Virus record (IMG/VR): IMGVR_UViG_3300042260_000231
Coordinates: 1 to 22,114 of that record
Length of the DNA stretch: 22,114 bases
Origin: a virus
Strand: one strand, 5' to 3'
Shown here: positions 13,070 through 21,420 of the stretch, in pieces
Layout of the letters: each line of letters begins with the position of its first letter
Numbering within the stretch: the first letter of the stretch is position 1
Position numbers and translations under genes: made by a program
The notes under the pieces: generated by a model
The model's database searches: none
The model's input: the letters and a program-made list of their open reading frames with translations, nothing else
What the model was told of the DNA's origin: nothing

Positions 13070-13428
13070 TAGTAGAAGCTTACTGTTAATATTTCTCTAA
13101 TAACCTCTGTATCTGGGTTGATTGCATATCCATTAGCGTGTGATGCTGCTACATCGAACGATACTCCTGGTTTTTGCTTTACCCAGAACTCCTTTACAAA
13201 CTCAGAGTCAATAATTTCGTTTGTTTTTGGATCTCTTGTCACTGTGAATAGTGCTGCCTTTACTTGTTTCATTTTACTTGATGTTACTGTGAATTTAAAT
13301 GATGGGTTTCGGTCACCCATTCCGATGTTTGATGATGGATTATATGTTAGTCCTGTAGCGTAAATTGATGAGTTACTGCTACCTGAAAACGTAAGTGTTC
13401 CTGATGAATTCATTCTTGCTTGTTCCAT
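13069..13428 (-). CDS. Unknown beta-rich protein between groEL and groES (119 aa)
   Basis: It begins MEQARMNSSGTLTFSGSSNS and consists mainly of short beta strands (FKFTVTSSKM, AALFTVTRDP, FVKEFWVKQK, VIREILTVSF) with no membrane segment or catalytic motif. It overlaps the groEL stop and the groES start by one base each (TAATG junctions), so the three proteins are made from one coupled transcript. That position makes it a good candidate for the favoured chaperonin substrate or for a chaperonin-associated virion protein. No family is recognised. Confidence 0.65.
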   Translation of the reverse strand: MEQARMNSSGTLTFSGSSNSSIYATGLTYNPSSNIGMGDRNPSFKFTVTSSKMKQVKAALFTVTRDPKTNEIIDSEFVKEFWVKQKPGVSFDVAASHANGYAINPDTEVIREILTVSFY

Positions 13429-15020
13429 TATGCTCTTGCCATTGTTATAATTGCGTTAGTACTCAAAATTGTTGTTGATACGGACACCGCGTTCTTAAGT
13501 GCGTTCTTTGTTACCTTTAGTGGGTCAATTACTCCCATCTTGTACATGTCACCGGACTGCATTCTCTTAATATCGAATCCATTAGTATAGCCTTGTATAC
13601 CATCCATAAGTTCATAACCGTCTAGGCCTGCGTTCTCAAATATCTGTAGCAACGGTGCTTGGATCGATCTTGCCACAACATGCATCGCAGCGTACTGCTC
13701 AGCGCTGATGTCCTCGATCATGTCGTCAGCGTCTGCAATGATCGCGTACGACTCATTAAATAACGCCACTCCGCCACCTGGCAAGATACCTTCCTCTAGT
13801 GCTGAACGTACCGCGCACACCGCGTCGTCGACTCTATCTTTTCTTTCCTTTTGTTCGATGTCTGAGTTTCCTCCAACGTGTATTACAGCTATTCCTCCAG
13901 TTAAACTAGCAATTCTTTCCTTGATAAAGTCTTGATCGTTCTTTTTATTACTCAAGTCGTGAGCCTGCCACAACTGAGCAACCCTTTCGTTTACCGCTTC
14001 GTTAGTTTCCTCTGACTTTACAATAGAAGCCGATTCCCTTCCAACGATTACTCTTTTGGCTTTGCCTAAGGATTCAACCGTCATTAAACTTAAATCGTCT
14101 CCAGTTTGCTCTGAGAAGTATTTTGCCCCTACCGCTAAGGCAATGTCACTCATCAATTCATTGCGCTTGTAGCCAAACTCTGGCGGCGTAATGTTACAGA
14201 ACTTAAGTCCTTTCTGTACAACGTTGATTGCCAGCGTGTTAATCACATTTTGACTACAAGGCCCAATGATAAGTAATTTTTTATTGGTTTGAATAACGTC
14301 TCTAAGTACGTTTTCAATTGATAGGATGTTATTAATCTCCTGATCAGTAACTAGAATATGCACGTCGTCTAATATACACTCGTCCTTTCTGTGGTCGTTC
14401 ACAAATAGCGGAGACGTGTATCCCCTGTTTATTTTGATACCGTCCGTAAATTCACAGTACGTATCTGCTGTCTGAGAGTTCTCTACTGTAACAATACCAT
14501 TATCTCCGACCTTATTGTACGCATCCGATATTAAGTCTCCAATCTCAGAGTCGTTGTTAGCAGATATTGACGCTACGTTGTTTAACGTCTTACCTGTTAC
14601 TTTTTTTGAACGCTTCTCTAGTCTCTTAATAAGATTGTTTGTTGTCGTGTTGATGTGACGGATCACCTCTGTGGTGTTCAGGCTGTCTTTGATTAGGTCT
14701 ATTCCGTTGTTTACGAATGCTTCTGTAAGTACTACTGAGGTTGTGGTTCCGTCACCAGCTGTATTTGCTGTATTAGATGAAGCTTCCTTTACCATTCTTA
14801 CAGCTAAATTTTCAATAGGATCTGCTAGGTCAATACTCTTACTTACAGTGTATCCATCCTTGGTTACTGTAATTCCTCTTGTAAAGTCGCTAGATTCGAT
14901 TAAAACTGTTTTACCTCTTGGTCCTAACGTGCTTTTTACAGCTTTTGATATCTTAGTTATTCCGCTAACTAACTTATCCCTCGCTTCTTTATCAAAGCTT
15001 AATTCTTTTATTGTTGTCAT
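13428..15020 (-). CDS. groL: Chaperonin GroEL (phage-encoded)
   Basis: A 530-residue group I chaperonin. ATP-site motifs are intact: LGPRGKT (32-38), KDGYTV (54-59), GDGTTT (89-94, with D90), and the catalytic aspartate D399 in RVDDA, followed by EEGILPGGGVAL and VIDPLKVT (497-504). The apical region keeps part of the substrate/GroES-binding hydrophobic surface (GYTSPLF, 200-206). It ends at MARA without the Gly-Gly-Met tail that lines the bottom of the bacterial cavity. It would form a 14-mer folding chamber, presumably for phage capsid or fibre proteins. The promoter is visible 18 nt spaced at 15043-15072. The gene heads an operon with an unknown protein and groES. Confidence 0.95.
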   Translation of the reverse strand: MTTIKELSFDKEARDKLVSGITKISKAVKSTLGPRGKTVLIESSDFTRGITVTKDGYTVSKSIDLADPIENLAVRMVKEASSNTANTAGDGTTTSVVLTEAFVNNGIDLIKDSLNTTEVIRHINTTTNNLIKRLEKRSKKVTGKTLNNVASISANNDSEIGDLISDAYNKVGDNGIVTVENSQTADTYCEFTDGIKINRGYTSPLFVNDHRKDECILDDVHILVTDQEINNILSIENVLRDVIQTNKKLLIIGPCSQNVINTLAINVVQKGLKFCNITPPEFGYKRNELMSDIALAVGAKYFSEQTGDDLSLMTVESLGKAKRVIVGRESASIVKSEETNEAVNERVAQLWQAHDLSNKKNDQDFIKERIASLTGGIAVIHVGGNSDIEQKERKDRVDDAVCAVRSALEEGILPGGGVALFNESYAIIADADDMIEDISAEQYAAMHVVARSIQAPLLQIFENAGLDGYELMDGIQGYTNGFDIKRMQSGDMYKMGVIDPLKVTKNALKNAVSVSTTILSTNAIITMARA

Positions 15021-15985: not shown

Positions 15986-15993
15986 ACTGTTTG

Positions 15994-16067
15994 TGGTCCC
16001 GCATGGGCTCGAACCATGGACCTACTGATTATGAGTCAGACGCTCTAACCAACTGAGCTACAGGACC
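15994..16067 (-). tRNA. tRNA with CAU anticodon (Met, or Ile2)
   Basis: A complete cloverleaf of 74 nt including the discriminator A. The acceptor stem is GGTCCTG/CGGGACC, the D-arm contains AGCTCAGTTGGTTAGAGC, the anticodon loop is CTCATAA (anticodon CAU), and the T-arm is CATGG TTCGAGC CCATG. CCA is not encoded. Without tools I cannot separate elongator Met from the Ile tRNA whose C34 is modified to lysidine. It is the downstream member of a two-gene leftward cluster. Confidence 0.93.
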
Positions 16068-16190
16068 GGTTTGCTTTTTTAGACGACGTCGAGAAAGCTA
16101 ACTCTATCTCCTATACGATGAGAACAGTTACTTTGAGCATTGTCAAGAGGCTTACTGTGTATTACGATCCCCTCGCGAGCGGGGCTGCTG

Positions 16191-16270
16191 CAATTGAGGT
16201 GAGATTCGAACTCACGTGTCGCCAGTATGTTTTTCAATACTGGCTGCCTATGCCACTCAGCCACTCAATC
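16191..16270 (-). tRNA. tRNA-like gene with abnormal anticodon arm (Ser UGA or Phe GAA)
   Basis: Acceptor stem GATTGAG/CTCAATT (top pair G-U), a D-arm of the serine/leucine kind (GGCTGAGTGGC...AGGC), a perfect T-arm (GTGAG TTCGAAT CTCAC) and discriminator G are all present. The anticodon arm is odd: an 8-bp stem (GCCAGTAT/ATACTGGC) with an 8-nt loop TGAAAAAC, about six nucleotides more than normal. The Ser reading (ATTGAAA, UGA) would need a 5-nt insertion; the Phe reading (TTGAAAA, GAA) a 3-nt insertion. The variable loop is only 5 nt, so the long arm of a true tRNA-Ser is missing. It may be decayed, specialised, or a frameshift-type tRNA. Confidence 0.7.
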
Positions 16271-18108: not shown

Positions 18109-18140
18109 TTTGGTGGATTGAAATACCCGCCGTATGTTTG
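18109..18140 (+). promoter_or_regulatory. Rightward early promoter
   Basis: TTTG (18109-18112) and TATGTTTG (18133-18140) separated by 20 nt match the Bacteroidota -33/-7 elements. A CCGC...GCGG inverted repeat brackets the -7 box and could be an operator. Transcription would start near 18146, giving an untranslated leader of about 210 nt that contains the hammerhead ribozyme. Confidence 0.72.
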
Positions 18141-18159
18141 CGGTGTTCAAATGAATTGA

Positions 18160-18288
18160 ATGGCTGTGAGTAGCAGTCTCCCGAGAGGGCAACTACTCCA
18201 CGAAAGCAAATAGTTAGTAGTGTGTGCAAGGGAGTTTAAAAACTTTACCGAGCGAGTTTCAGTGCGCGAGTATTGGCTTAGGAAAACA
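18160..18288 (+). ncRNA. Structured leader upstream of the hammerhead ribozyme
   Basis: GAGTAG pairs with CTACTC (near 18169-18200), enclosing a CCC-GAGA-GGG hairpin with a GNRA-type loop. Further on, AAACT/AGTTT (near 18239-18259) encloses another loop. The base composition (more G and C) differs from the AT-rich flanks. There is no open reading frame of note. I recognise no known riboswitch class, but the folding potential suggests a functional RNA domain that is released by the downstream ribozyme. Confidence 0.4.
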
Positions 18289-18345
18289 AAACGTATATGG
18301 CTAACAACTCGCCATACTGATGAGTCGCAGAACGACGAAACGTTT
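18289..18345 (+). ncRNA. Type III hammerhead self-cleaving ribozyme
   Basis: All elements are present in order. Stem III 5' strand AAACGT (18289-18294); cleavage triplet GTA (18293-18295), cut expected after A18295; stem I TATGGC/GCCATA (18296-18301 with 18311-18316) closing a 9-nt loop; core CTGATGA (18317-18323); stem II GTCG/CGAC (18324-18327 with 18333-18336) closing CAGAA; core GAAA (18337-18340), whose last A pairs with T18294; stem III 3' strand CGTTT (18341-18345). Every invariant core base is intact, as are the G10.1-C11.1 and C15.2-G16.2 pairs. The open stem III makes it type III. It lies 13 nt before the first start codon of the rightward operon. Confidence 0.95.
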
Positions 18346-18358
18346 AAATTTAATTATT

Positions 18359-18574
18359 ATGAAAATCTTATCAATTAATGAGTACGCAAAAAAAGTAAAA
18401 TGTATTTTAAGCAATCCTACACTAGAAGAAATTCAAGATTTTGTGGAAGAAAATTATGATATATCAATCTGGGACTATCCTATTGATGAGCTAGAATACG
18501 TGTTAAACGAAGTAAACACAAACGTCTGTTTTGTTAAAGTAGATGACGAGATAAGAATATGCGAACTTAATTAA
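18359..18574 (+). CDS. First gene of the rightward early operon, unknown (71 aa)
   Basis: The start at 18359 is chosen because the in-frame ATG at 18320 lies inside the ribozyme core (the ATG of CTGATGA). The 71-residue product starts MKILSINEYAKKVKCILSNP and is acidic, with a helix (LEEIQDFVEENYDISIW), a second helix (IDELEYVLNEVNTNV) and a final strand pair (CFVKVDDEIRIC). No family is recognised. Its message should be produced with a 5'-hydroxyl end after ribozyme cleavage 64 nt upstream of the ATG, which may alter stability or translation. Confidence 0.65.
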   Translation: MKILSINEYAKKVKCILSNPTLEEIQDFVEENYDISIWDYPIDELEYVLNEVNTNVCFVKVDDEIRICELN

Positions 18575-20020: not shown

Positions 20021-20358
20021 AAGACAACAAACTAATAGCCGAGTTTATCGGATACGATACAAAACAACTCAACAAAGGAGTAGCTAGTTTAGAAGGGAAC
20101 AAATTTGTCTGGGGACAGAAACACTACCACATAAACAATCAGTGGTATGGAGAAGACGATCTACAATATCACGAGGATTGGAACTGGCTGATCCCAGCAG
20201 TAATTAAATGCAAGGAACGTCAATTCTTTGGTAGCAATAGTCTAATCACTAGACTAAACAACGCACTAGTACAAGCAGATATTGAACTAGTTTACGAACA
20301 AGTAATCGAATTTATTAATTATTATAATAAGCAAAATGAAAACAACAATAGAAATTAA
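19999..20358 (+). CDS. Conserved early phage protein with W/H-rich core (119 aa)
   Basis: It begins MGTMRTIEDNKLIAEFIGYD (an internal ATG at 20008 is an equally possible start). The middle DDLQYHEDWNWLIPAVIKCK is a conserved block ('LxYHxDWxWLxPVxxKI') that I know from many small proteins in Bacteroidota phages and prophages. The C-terminal half is helical and ends in an Asn-rich tail. It overlaps the pentapeptide-repeat gene by 23 bp. Function unknown. Confidence 0.68.
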   Translation: MGTMRTIEDNKLIAEFIGYDTKQLNKGVASLEGNKFVWGQKHYHINNQWYGEDDLQYHEDWNWLIPAVIKCKERQFFGSNSLITRLNNALVQADIELVYEQVIEFINYYNKQNENNNRN

Positions 20359-20980
20359 ATCAATCTTTGGAGAAGTATTATTTACTTACACAAATGAAAA
20401 TGCAACTATTAAAGATGCAGTTGAACAAGCAGTAAAAGAAAAAGCTAATTTATACGGAGCTAGTTTATACGGAGCTAATTTATACGGAGCTAGTTTAGTC
20501 GGTGCAAGGTTAGACGGAGCTAATTTAGACAGAGCTAATTTAGACAGAGCTAGTTTAGACAGAGCTAGTTTATACGGAGCTAATTTATACGGAGCTAGTT
20601 TAGTCGGTGCAAGGTTAGACGGAGCTAATTTATACGGAGCTAATTTAGACAGAGCTAATTTAGACAGAGCTAGTTTAGACAGAGCTAGTTTAGACAGAGC
20701 TAGTTTATACGGAGCTAATTTAGACAGAGCTAGTTTAGACAGAGCTAGTTTATACGGAGCTATTAAGTTACCTATATACTGCAAATGGTCACACGGAATT
20801 ACAGATAACAATCTAATCCACATTGGATGCGAAAAAAGAACCATACAAGACTGGGATGACTTTTTTAATAGCGACAAAGAAATAGAAACAAAACGAGGAA
20901 CGAAAGAATTCAAGCAAATCCAAGCCGTATACGAATCGTACAAGGCTTACTTAAACTTTTTAAACAATGAAAGCATTTAA
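20336..20980 (+). CDS. Pentapeptide-repeat protein (214 aa)
   Basis: After an N-terminal strand pair and helix (about 1-36) there are 21 consecutive five-residue units of type A(N/S/R)L(Y/D/V)(G/R), about residues 37-141, which should form a right-handed quadrilateral beta-helix. A C-terminal domain follows (KWSHGITDNNLIHIGCEKRT, then IQDWDDFFNSDKEI and a helical FKQIQAVYESYKAY end). This C-terminal region is shared with many phage pentapeptide proteins as I remember them. Some pentapeptide proteins (for example MfpA and Qnr) mimic DNA and act on gyrase; whether this one does is unknown. It overlaps both neighbours. Confidence 0.88.
   Translation: MKTTIEIKSIFGEVLFTYTNENATIKDAVEQAVKEKANLYGASLYGANLYGASLVGARLDGANLDRANLDRASLDRASLYGANLYGASLVGARLDGANLYGANLDRANLDRASLDRASLDRASLYGANLDRASLDRASLYGAIKLPIYCKWSHGITDNNLIHIGCEKRTIQDWDDFFNSDKEIETKRGTKEFKQIQAVYESYKAYLNFLNNESI
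20443..20763 (+). repeat. 15-bp tandem repeat array coding the pentapeptides
   Basis: About 21 units of 15 bp, alternately ending ...TTATACGGAGC or ...TTAGACAGAGC. A larger duplication is visible: the units coding ASLVG-ARLDG-AN occur twice, seven repeats (105 bp) apart. The near-identity of the units points to recent expansion by slippage or unequal recombination. The period is a multiple of three, which keeps the antisense strand open. Confidence 0.85.
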
Positions 20981-21200
20981 CCCAACGGCATTCCCGTTAA
21001 AGCACGCAGACGACAAGTTCAACCCAGGTATGACACTCCGCGACTACTTCGCGGGTCAGGCAATAGTAGGTATATTAAACACACCGTCAATCCTAGAAGA
21101 TTTAGGAATTAACCTTAACCAAGCATCAACGCTAGCTTACGAAATAGCTGATGACTTACTAATAGAACGACAAAAATATGAGTCTCAAAATAACAGATAA
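20967..21200 (+). CDS. Conserved early phage protein (GMTLRDYFA family, 77 aa)
   Basis: It starts MKAFNPTAFPLKHADDKFNP and carries the motif GMTLRDYFAGQAIVGIL followed by ASTLAYEIADDLLIERQ. 'GMTLRDYFAxxAxxxxI...AYxxADAMLxxR' is a very common small protein in phages and prophages of many Gram-negative hosts, with no firmly known role. It overlaps the pentapeptide gene by 14 bp and the ferredoxin gene by 23 bp, so the ferredoxin is part of the same translated unit. Confidence 0.78.
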   Translation: MKAFNPTAFPLKHADDKFNPGMTLRDYFAGQAIVGILNTPSILEDLGINLNQASTLAYEIADDLLIERQKYESQNNR

Positions 21201-21420
21201 CTGCATCAACTGTGGCTTATGTGAATGGGAATGTCCCAACAACGCCATATACGAGCCGAGCGTAGAATGGACGTACAAGAACGAAACAACAAAACACGCA
21301 CCACTATCGGAAGAGGTGTACTACATCGTGGCTGACAAGTGTACAGAATGTGTCGGCTTCCACGCAACACCACAATGCGCACTAGTATGCCCTTCCAATT
21401 GTTGCGTGCCTAACGACTAA
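21178..21420 (+). CDS. 2[4Fe-4S] ferredoxin (YfhL/Alvin-type)
   Basis: An 80-residue ferredoxin. Cluster motif one is C9-x2-C12-x2-C15-x3-C19-P (CINCGLCEWECP). Motif two is C55-x2-C58-x8-C67-x3-C71-P (CTECVGFHATPQCALVCP). The enlarged x8 spacing and C-terminal extension with C75/C76 are features of Alvin- or YfhL-type ferredoxins with two low-potential clusters. The order 'SLKITDNCINCGLCEWECPN' and 'YYIVADKCTECVGFH' closely resembles chromosomal ferredoxins of Bacteroidota, but the region between the clusters is shorter. It was probably taken from a host. It would carry electrons in the cytoplasm to an unknown partner. It starts inside the preceding gene. Confidence 0.9.
   Translation: MSLKITDNCINCGLCEWECPNNAIYEPSVEWTYKNETTKHAPLSEEVYYIVADKCTECVGFHATPQCALVCPSNCCVPND

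Follow-up and report, generated by a model that had tools for sequence, protein, structure and literature searches.

The window, a 22,114-base virus record analysed at its full length, represents a tailed phage with affinity to Elemovirus and a more remote one to Pachyviridae, with a terminase 73% identical to that of MW202828 and 46% identical to those of Flavobacterium elemo phages. Left of ~17.5 kb, its genes run mostly leftward (terminase, tail, lysis, and groEL), and right of 18.3 kb, they run rightward. No DNA-level match to the region was found in phage records. The original prediction that the rightward block is an early or replication operon agrees with the relatives: primase/helicase, helicase, exonuclease, and other DNA-metabolism genes lie downstream on the same strand in one of them, as do exonuclease, Erf, primase/helicase, and replication initiator genes in Elemovirus, and this gene content suggests early expression. 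The leftward block includes a phage-encoded GroEL (Cpn60; 13428-15020, minus strand) that is conserved in relatives, and the early block includes a ferredoxin-like small 4Fe-4S protein (21178-21420, plus strand) and a pentapeptide-repeat protein (20336-20980, plus strand). Beside a tRNA-Met(CAU) gene (15993-16067), ARAGORN identified a tRNA-like gene with a four-base 'aaaa' anticodon (16190-16270, minus strand), and relative L002 likewise has a second tRNA there. Next to the tRNAs, 16123-16158 (minus strand) weakly resembles the abiF small RNA family (25.2 bits, cut-off 37, E = 1.3), probably by chance.

Upstream of the rightward block is a Bacteroidota-type promoter (18109-18140, plus strand; consensus in PMC7366714), comprising a -33 TTTG (18109-18112), a 20-nt spacer, and a -7 TATGTTTG (18133-18140), from which transcription would start at ~18146. 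TTTG-N20-TATGTTTG alone has a chance expectation of about one per window, and support for the promoter comes from TAnnTTTG, which occurs ≤350 nt upstream in 21/27 relatives versus 33/291 type I hammerheads among the matches listed. These results uphold the proposed location of a ribozyme between such a promoter and the gene that opens the rightward (early) block. That gene (18359-18574, plus strand) encodes 71 amino acids with no family match; it varies between relatives, and a search for relatives of the gene itself found none. It is separated from the ribozyme by an AT-rich spacer of 13 nt (18346-18358, plus strand), which is mostly 8-16 nt long in relatives.

The ribozyme is a complete type III hammerhead (18289-18345, plus strand), with predicted cleavage after GUA, between A18295 and U18296. 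Its sequence provides stem III (18289-18294/18340-18345), stem I (18296-18301/18311-18316), the core CTGATGA (18317-18323), stem II (18324-18327/18333-18336), and GAAA (18337-18340), so that the originally predicted element with a GTA site proved exact in its coordinates, core, and three stems. The likeness to the Rfam type III family (RF00008, Hammerhead_3) extends to the core nucleotides (C-U-G-A-N-G-A ... G-A-A, together with the U16.1-A15.1 pair), to three stems backed by compensatory changes, of which stem III is open-ended, and to the NUH site. In contrast to that family, the site reads GUA here and in every close relative (GUC in L059), the element is located in a phage early leader, and loop II is a CAGAA nearly invariant across the relatives compared (CGGAA in L222). 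Loop I occurs in three forms and may form a tertiary contact with loop II. An ATG inside the core, in frame with the first gene (ORF 18320-18574), was considered as a start codon and rejected; relatives whose core reads CTGACGA, or whose spacing differs, do not preserve it.

An Rfam search, on which the original prediction had expected a Hammerhead_3 hit, did return a match (18288-18346, plus strand; 43.9 bits, E = 9.5e-7), but this falls under the gathering score of 48.5 bits, a database threshold rather than a biochemical feature. None of the 34 records searched scored above this cut-off; curated database cut-offs thus overlook the whole group. The low score would fit a chance or decayed hammerhead-like sequence, an explanation that is scarcely credible in view of the compensatory changes, the syntenic conservation, and the absence of any match to the ribozyme motif finder in 1.44 Mb of shuffled DNA. 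When folded computationally in isolation, the 63-nt element is predicted to form the hammerhead (MFE = centroid, z = -2.3).

A ribozyme is present at the same position in 32 related viral sequences, including those of cultivated Flavobacterium phages (Elemovirus). Relatives collected via GroEL yielded 10 loci with a type III hammerhead in the corresponding position, and a direct scan of viral contigs with the ribozyme pattern gave further carriers. Six Elemovirus species carry a type III hammerhead (74 bits) that heads the replication gene block. Among 32 distinct sequences, aligned by fitting to a covariance model, 96.5% of pair cells were standard and 12/16 pairs showed double changes; 81 double-change cells were observed versus 20.4 in shuffles (0/500), and slid controls collapsed. 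When the first 11 sequences were aligned with MAFFT, without fitting to a model, 8/16 pairs showed double changes, and a covariance model built from these 11, the window among them, scored the window at 80 bits. Stem II, for example, occurs as GUCG/CGAC, GAGG/CCUC, GCUA/UAGC, GCCA/UGGC, and GUCA/UGAC. The stems therefore passed the comparative covariation test that had been set for them, and the hammerhead is confirmed as real. Some relatives do not share this arrangement, which speaks against the explanation favoured below. More distant relatives (L012 8068-8157 and L013 8149-8198, both minus strand) have a type I rather than a type III hammerhead near the same place. The ribozyme pattern gave five unrelated matches across one genome per prokaryote species, none from Bacteroidota by title, and hence no prophage carriers were seen. 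No hammerhead was found in MW202828; in that genome (L145, MW202828.1 43750-44830), repeated GTGTCGTTAACGACAC palindromes precede the early genes in an operator-like arrangement.

The ~150 nt between promoter and ribozyme are also conserved and covarying, and this region ends just before the ribozyme. The leader is apparently pseudoknotted. In the window (all plus strand), an invariant helix S1 (GGCUG/CAGUC, 18162-18166/18174-18178) and a covarying helix S2 (GAGUAG/CUACUC, 18168-18173/18193-18198) would make up a pseudoknot spanning 18162-18198. It is followed by a small hairpin with an AAAUAG loop (18204-18215), which has a form common to the other leader class and is the weakest helix of the window, with one G-G mismatch, by hairpin H4 with an A-rich loop (18226-18253), and by the covarying hairpin H5 (CAGUGC-GCGA-GUAUUG, 18260-18275). 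In Elemovirus elemoE 6-9C (NC_055854.1), where the ribozyme is at 18154-18090 on the minus strand, gp58 (18229-18369) is annotated on the strand opposite the leader RNA region and is possibly not a true gene.

Promoter-to-ribozyme sequences divide into classes. For class A, to which the window belongs, six sequences aligned simply with MAFFT gave 10 pairs with double changes and a score of 0.457 versus 0.206 when shuffled, for a structure that was picked by inspecting the very alignment on which it was then scored. A class B model built from five sequences detects the leader in most carriers; class B/C shows double changes in 21/24 pairs (score of 0.510 versus 0.143 shuffled and ≤0.121 slid), counts that lean towards the model to which the class B alignment was fitted. 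The class B helices stop a few nucleotides 5' of the ribozyme. Each class has a short invariant helix (GGGU/ACUC or GGCUG/CAGUC) within which lies the 5' strand of a second, strongly covarying helix. We read this layout as that of an H-type pseudoknot, after which comes a hairpin whose loop is of the AAAUAG type; the plan would be common to both classes, which are likened on this basis and may or may not be homologous. The leader matched none of 4,227 Rfam families, even at E values of up to 5-10, and single-sequence folding did not make it visibly structured (z = 0.2). The predicted structured RNA upstream of the ribozyme is hence supported by covariation and not by single-sequence folding.

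A scan of viral contigs with the leader motif only recovered six known contigs and three new ones, nine in all. All three new contigs have a hammerhead directly 3' of the leader that the ribozyme search had missed, and two of them show a previously unseen compensated stem III (AGUGU/ACACU). The scan motif represents class B, and this test of leader-ribozyme pairing applies to that class. A separate R2 match in MW202828 (L145 43891-43990, E = 0.05) falls within a coding sequence, has no ribozyme, and was taken as chance. Leader and ribozyme are both conserved by compensatory change, and they occur together. From its placement exactly at the junction of leader RNA and first messenger, the ribozyme probably severs one from the other, with cleavage of this element expected from the known chemistry of the hammerhead class. 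We assign a probability of roughly 78% to the explanation as a whole, namely that the hammerhead cuts a conserved leader RNA off the early message. The early transcript of this Flavobacteriia phage would start near 18146, and its first product would be a folded, pseudoknot-containing leader RNA of ~150 nt, followed by the type III hammerhead. Self-cleavage after A18295, which presumably takes place in infected cells as the RNA is made or shortly afterwards, would free a leader RNA whose 3' end is a 2',3'-cyclic phosphate and leave an early mRNA with a 5'-hydroxyl end, on which the hairpins of stems I and II would remain 13 nt ahead of the first start codon. The purpose may be to part the leader, as either a regulatory RNA or a cis element that only the polymerase needs, from the message. 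More tentatively, and at less than even odds, the leader could be a new family of phage-made regulatory RNA and the first product of infection, with the hammerhead as its dedicated 3'-end maturation device; sequence classes would be swapped while the pseudoknot plan and ribozyme persist.

The cis-acting version of this proposal has a parallel in HK022 put RNA and other early-leader antiterminators, which are structured RNAs at the very start of early transcripts. The analogy with put is one of position and of being structured, and put-type leaders are not known to be cut off by a ribozyme. Were the leader an antiterminator acting on polymerase in the manner of put, the ribozyme would serve to free the message from it. 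The promoter-proximal location, right where a long early transcript begins, and a structure kept while the sequence changes are consistent with such a role; nonetheless, the case is mostly inference, and we consider it unlikely.

The leader might instead gate the ribozyme, with an alternative fold blocking cleavage and making it regulated. When the window's copy was folded with its full leader, an alternative pairing of H5 with the ribozyme core was predicted to abolish the hammerhead (stem probabilities of 0.0 versus ~0.95 alone). This prediction also counts against the main explanation above. In full-leader folds of relatives, stem I was retained in most, although stem III was weakened in many as well, and a complete competing structure was predicted for the window's copy only. 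These programs are blind to pseudoknots, tertiary contacts, and co-transcriptional order. With a complete block predicted for one copy, and conserved leader helices that speak against the alternative fold, gating appears improbable, more so than antitermination.

An early-leader hammerhead is not without precedent, given the published HF1/HF2 haloviruses. Their hammerhead precedes the first gene of an early polycistronic message by 13 nt, the distance also seen in the window, and the RNA 5' end maps to the cut (PMC3088659). The HF1/HF2 element differs in its archaeal host and in an atypical core with insertions, and the available text describes no structured leader RNA for it (PMC3088659). The same source reports prophage hammerheads near integrases and clusters flanking single genes (PMC3088659), which, with the early HF1/HF2 case, does not support the original assertion that lysis genes and late regions are where most phage hammerheads were reported. 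Early-leader hammerheads and hammerhead arrays are thus already known kinds, and the novelty is that this ribozyme is paired with a leader RNA from a new family. We found no literature on hammerheads of Bacteroidota phages or on this leader RNA, in a search that covered few subscription journals.

In about two thirds of carriers, the spaces between the first early genes also hold one or two same-strand type I hammerheads, whereas the window and Elemovirus have none downstream. These type I copies extend over the stop codon of the preceding gene, with 3' ends that mostly fall 13-20 nt short of the following ATG, and in many relatives, they may cut the message further between the first early genes. 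Among the matches listed, which come from pattern scans so that fractions describe those sets only, 94/241 hammerhead clusters hold two or more, indicating that hammerheads commonly punctuate phage operons. Type III comes first in 27/31 mixed clusters among these matches, which are not independent, as many are from one clade. Leader copies directly follow an upstream stop codon in 0/27 cases, compared with 35/43 for other type III and 259/291 for type I hammerheads among the matches listed; the leader-terminal class is unlike other surveyed phage hammerheads, which are mostly intercistronic.

This arrangement bears on whether the ribozyme serves the mRNA, with a 5'-hydroxyl message whose decay is slowed by 5' hairpins (and by 3' hairpins if a type I copy follows) and a leader that is a by-product. 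A type III body stays on the downstream message and a type I body on the upstream one, which would leave gene 1 flanked by hairpins on both sides; the type III-first order, although many of the phages are related, and the placement of type I copies between stop and start codons fit as well. We regard a role in the mRNA as possible, about as much so as the regulatory RNA family and likewise short of an even chance, but it leaves the structural conservation of the leader and its continued attachment to the ribozyme unexplained. One ribozyme is fixed at one clade-wide site beside a conserved RNA, in phages cultivated on a laboratory Flavobacterium, making it testable whether the cut serves the leader RNA, the message, or both.

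Clustered hammerheads have been described previously. Perreault et al. (2011) reported active hammerhead clusters in prophage operons and suggested processing to single-gene messages (PMC3088659). In the Clostridium scindens, Azorhizobium, and Agrobacterium prophages covered there, several hammerheads active in vitro flank single operon genes, whereas here the first ribozyme terminates a conserved promoter-adjacent leader RNA (PMC3088659). Several phages with two or three hammerheads flanking a gene could also be taken to suggest that ribozyme ends are re-joined into circular or spliced phage RNA. This is very unlikely: no RtcB ligase was found in 17 records (a host may supply one), and Perreault et al. 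sought such products in other clusters without finding any (PMC3088659). Separately, a group of intergenic type I hammerheads (L184-L215, L230, L231, L128, and others) has a near-constant stem I (GGUUAA/UUAACC); these copies usually overlap the upstream stop codon and number up to eight hammerheads per locus (L128).
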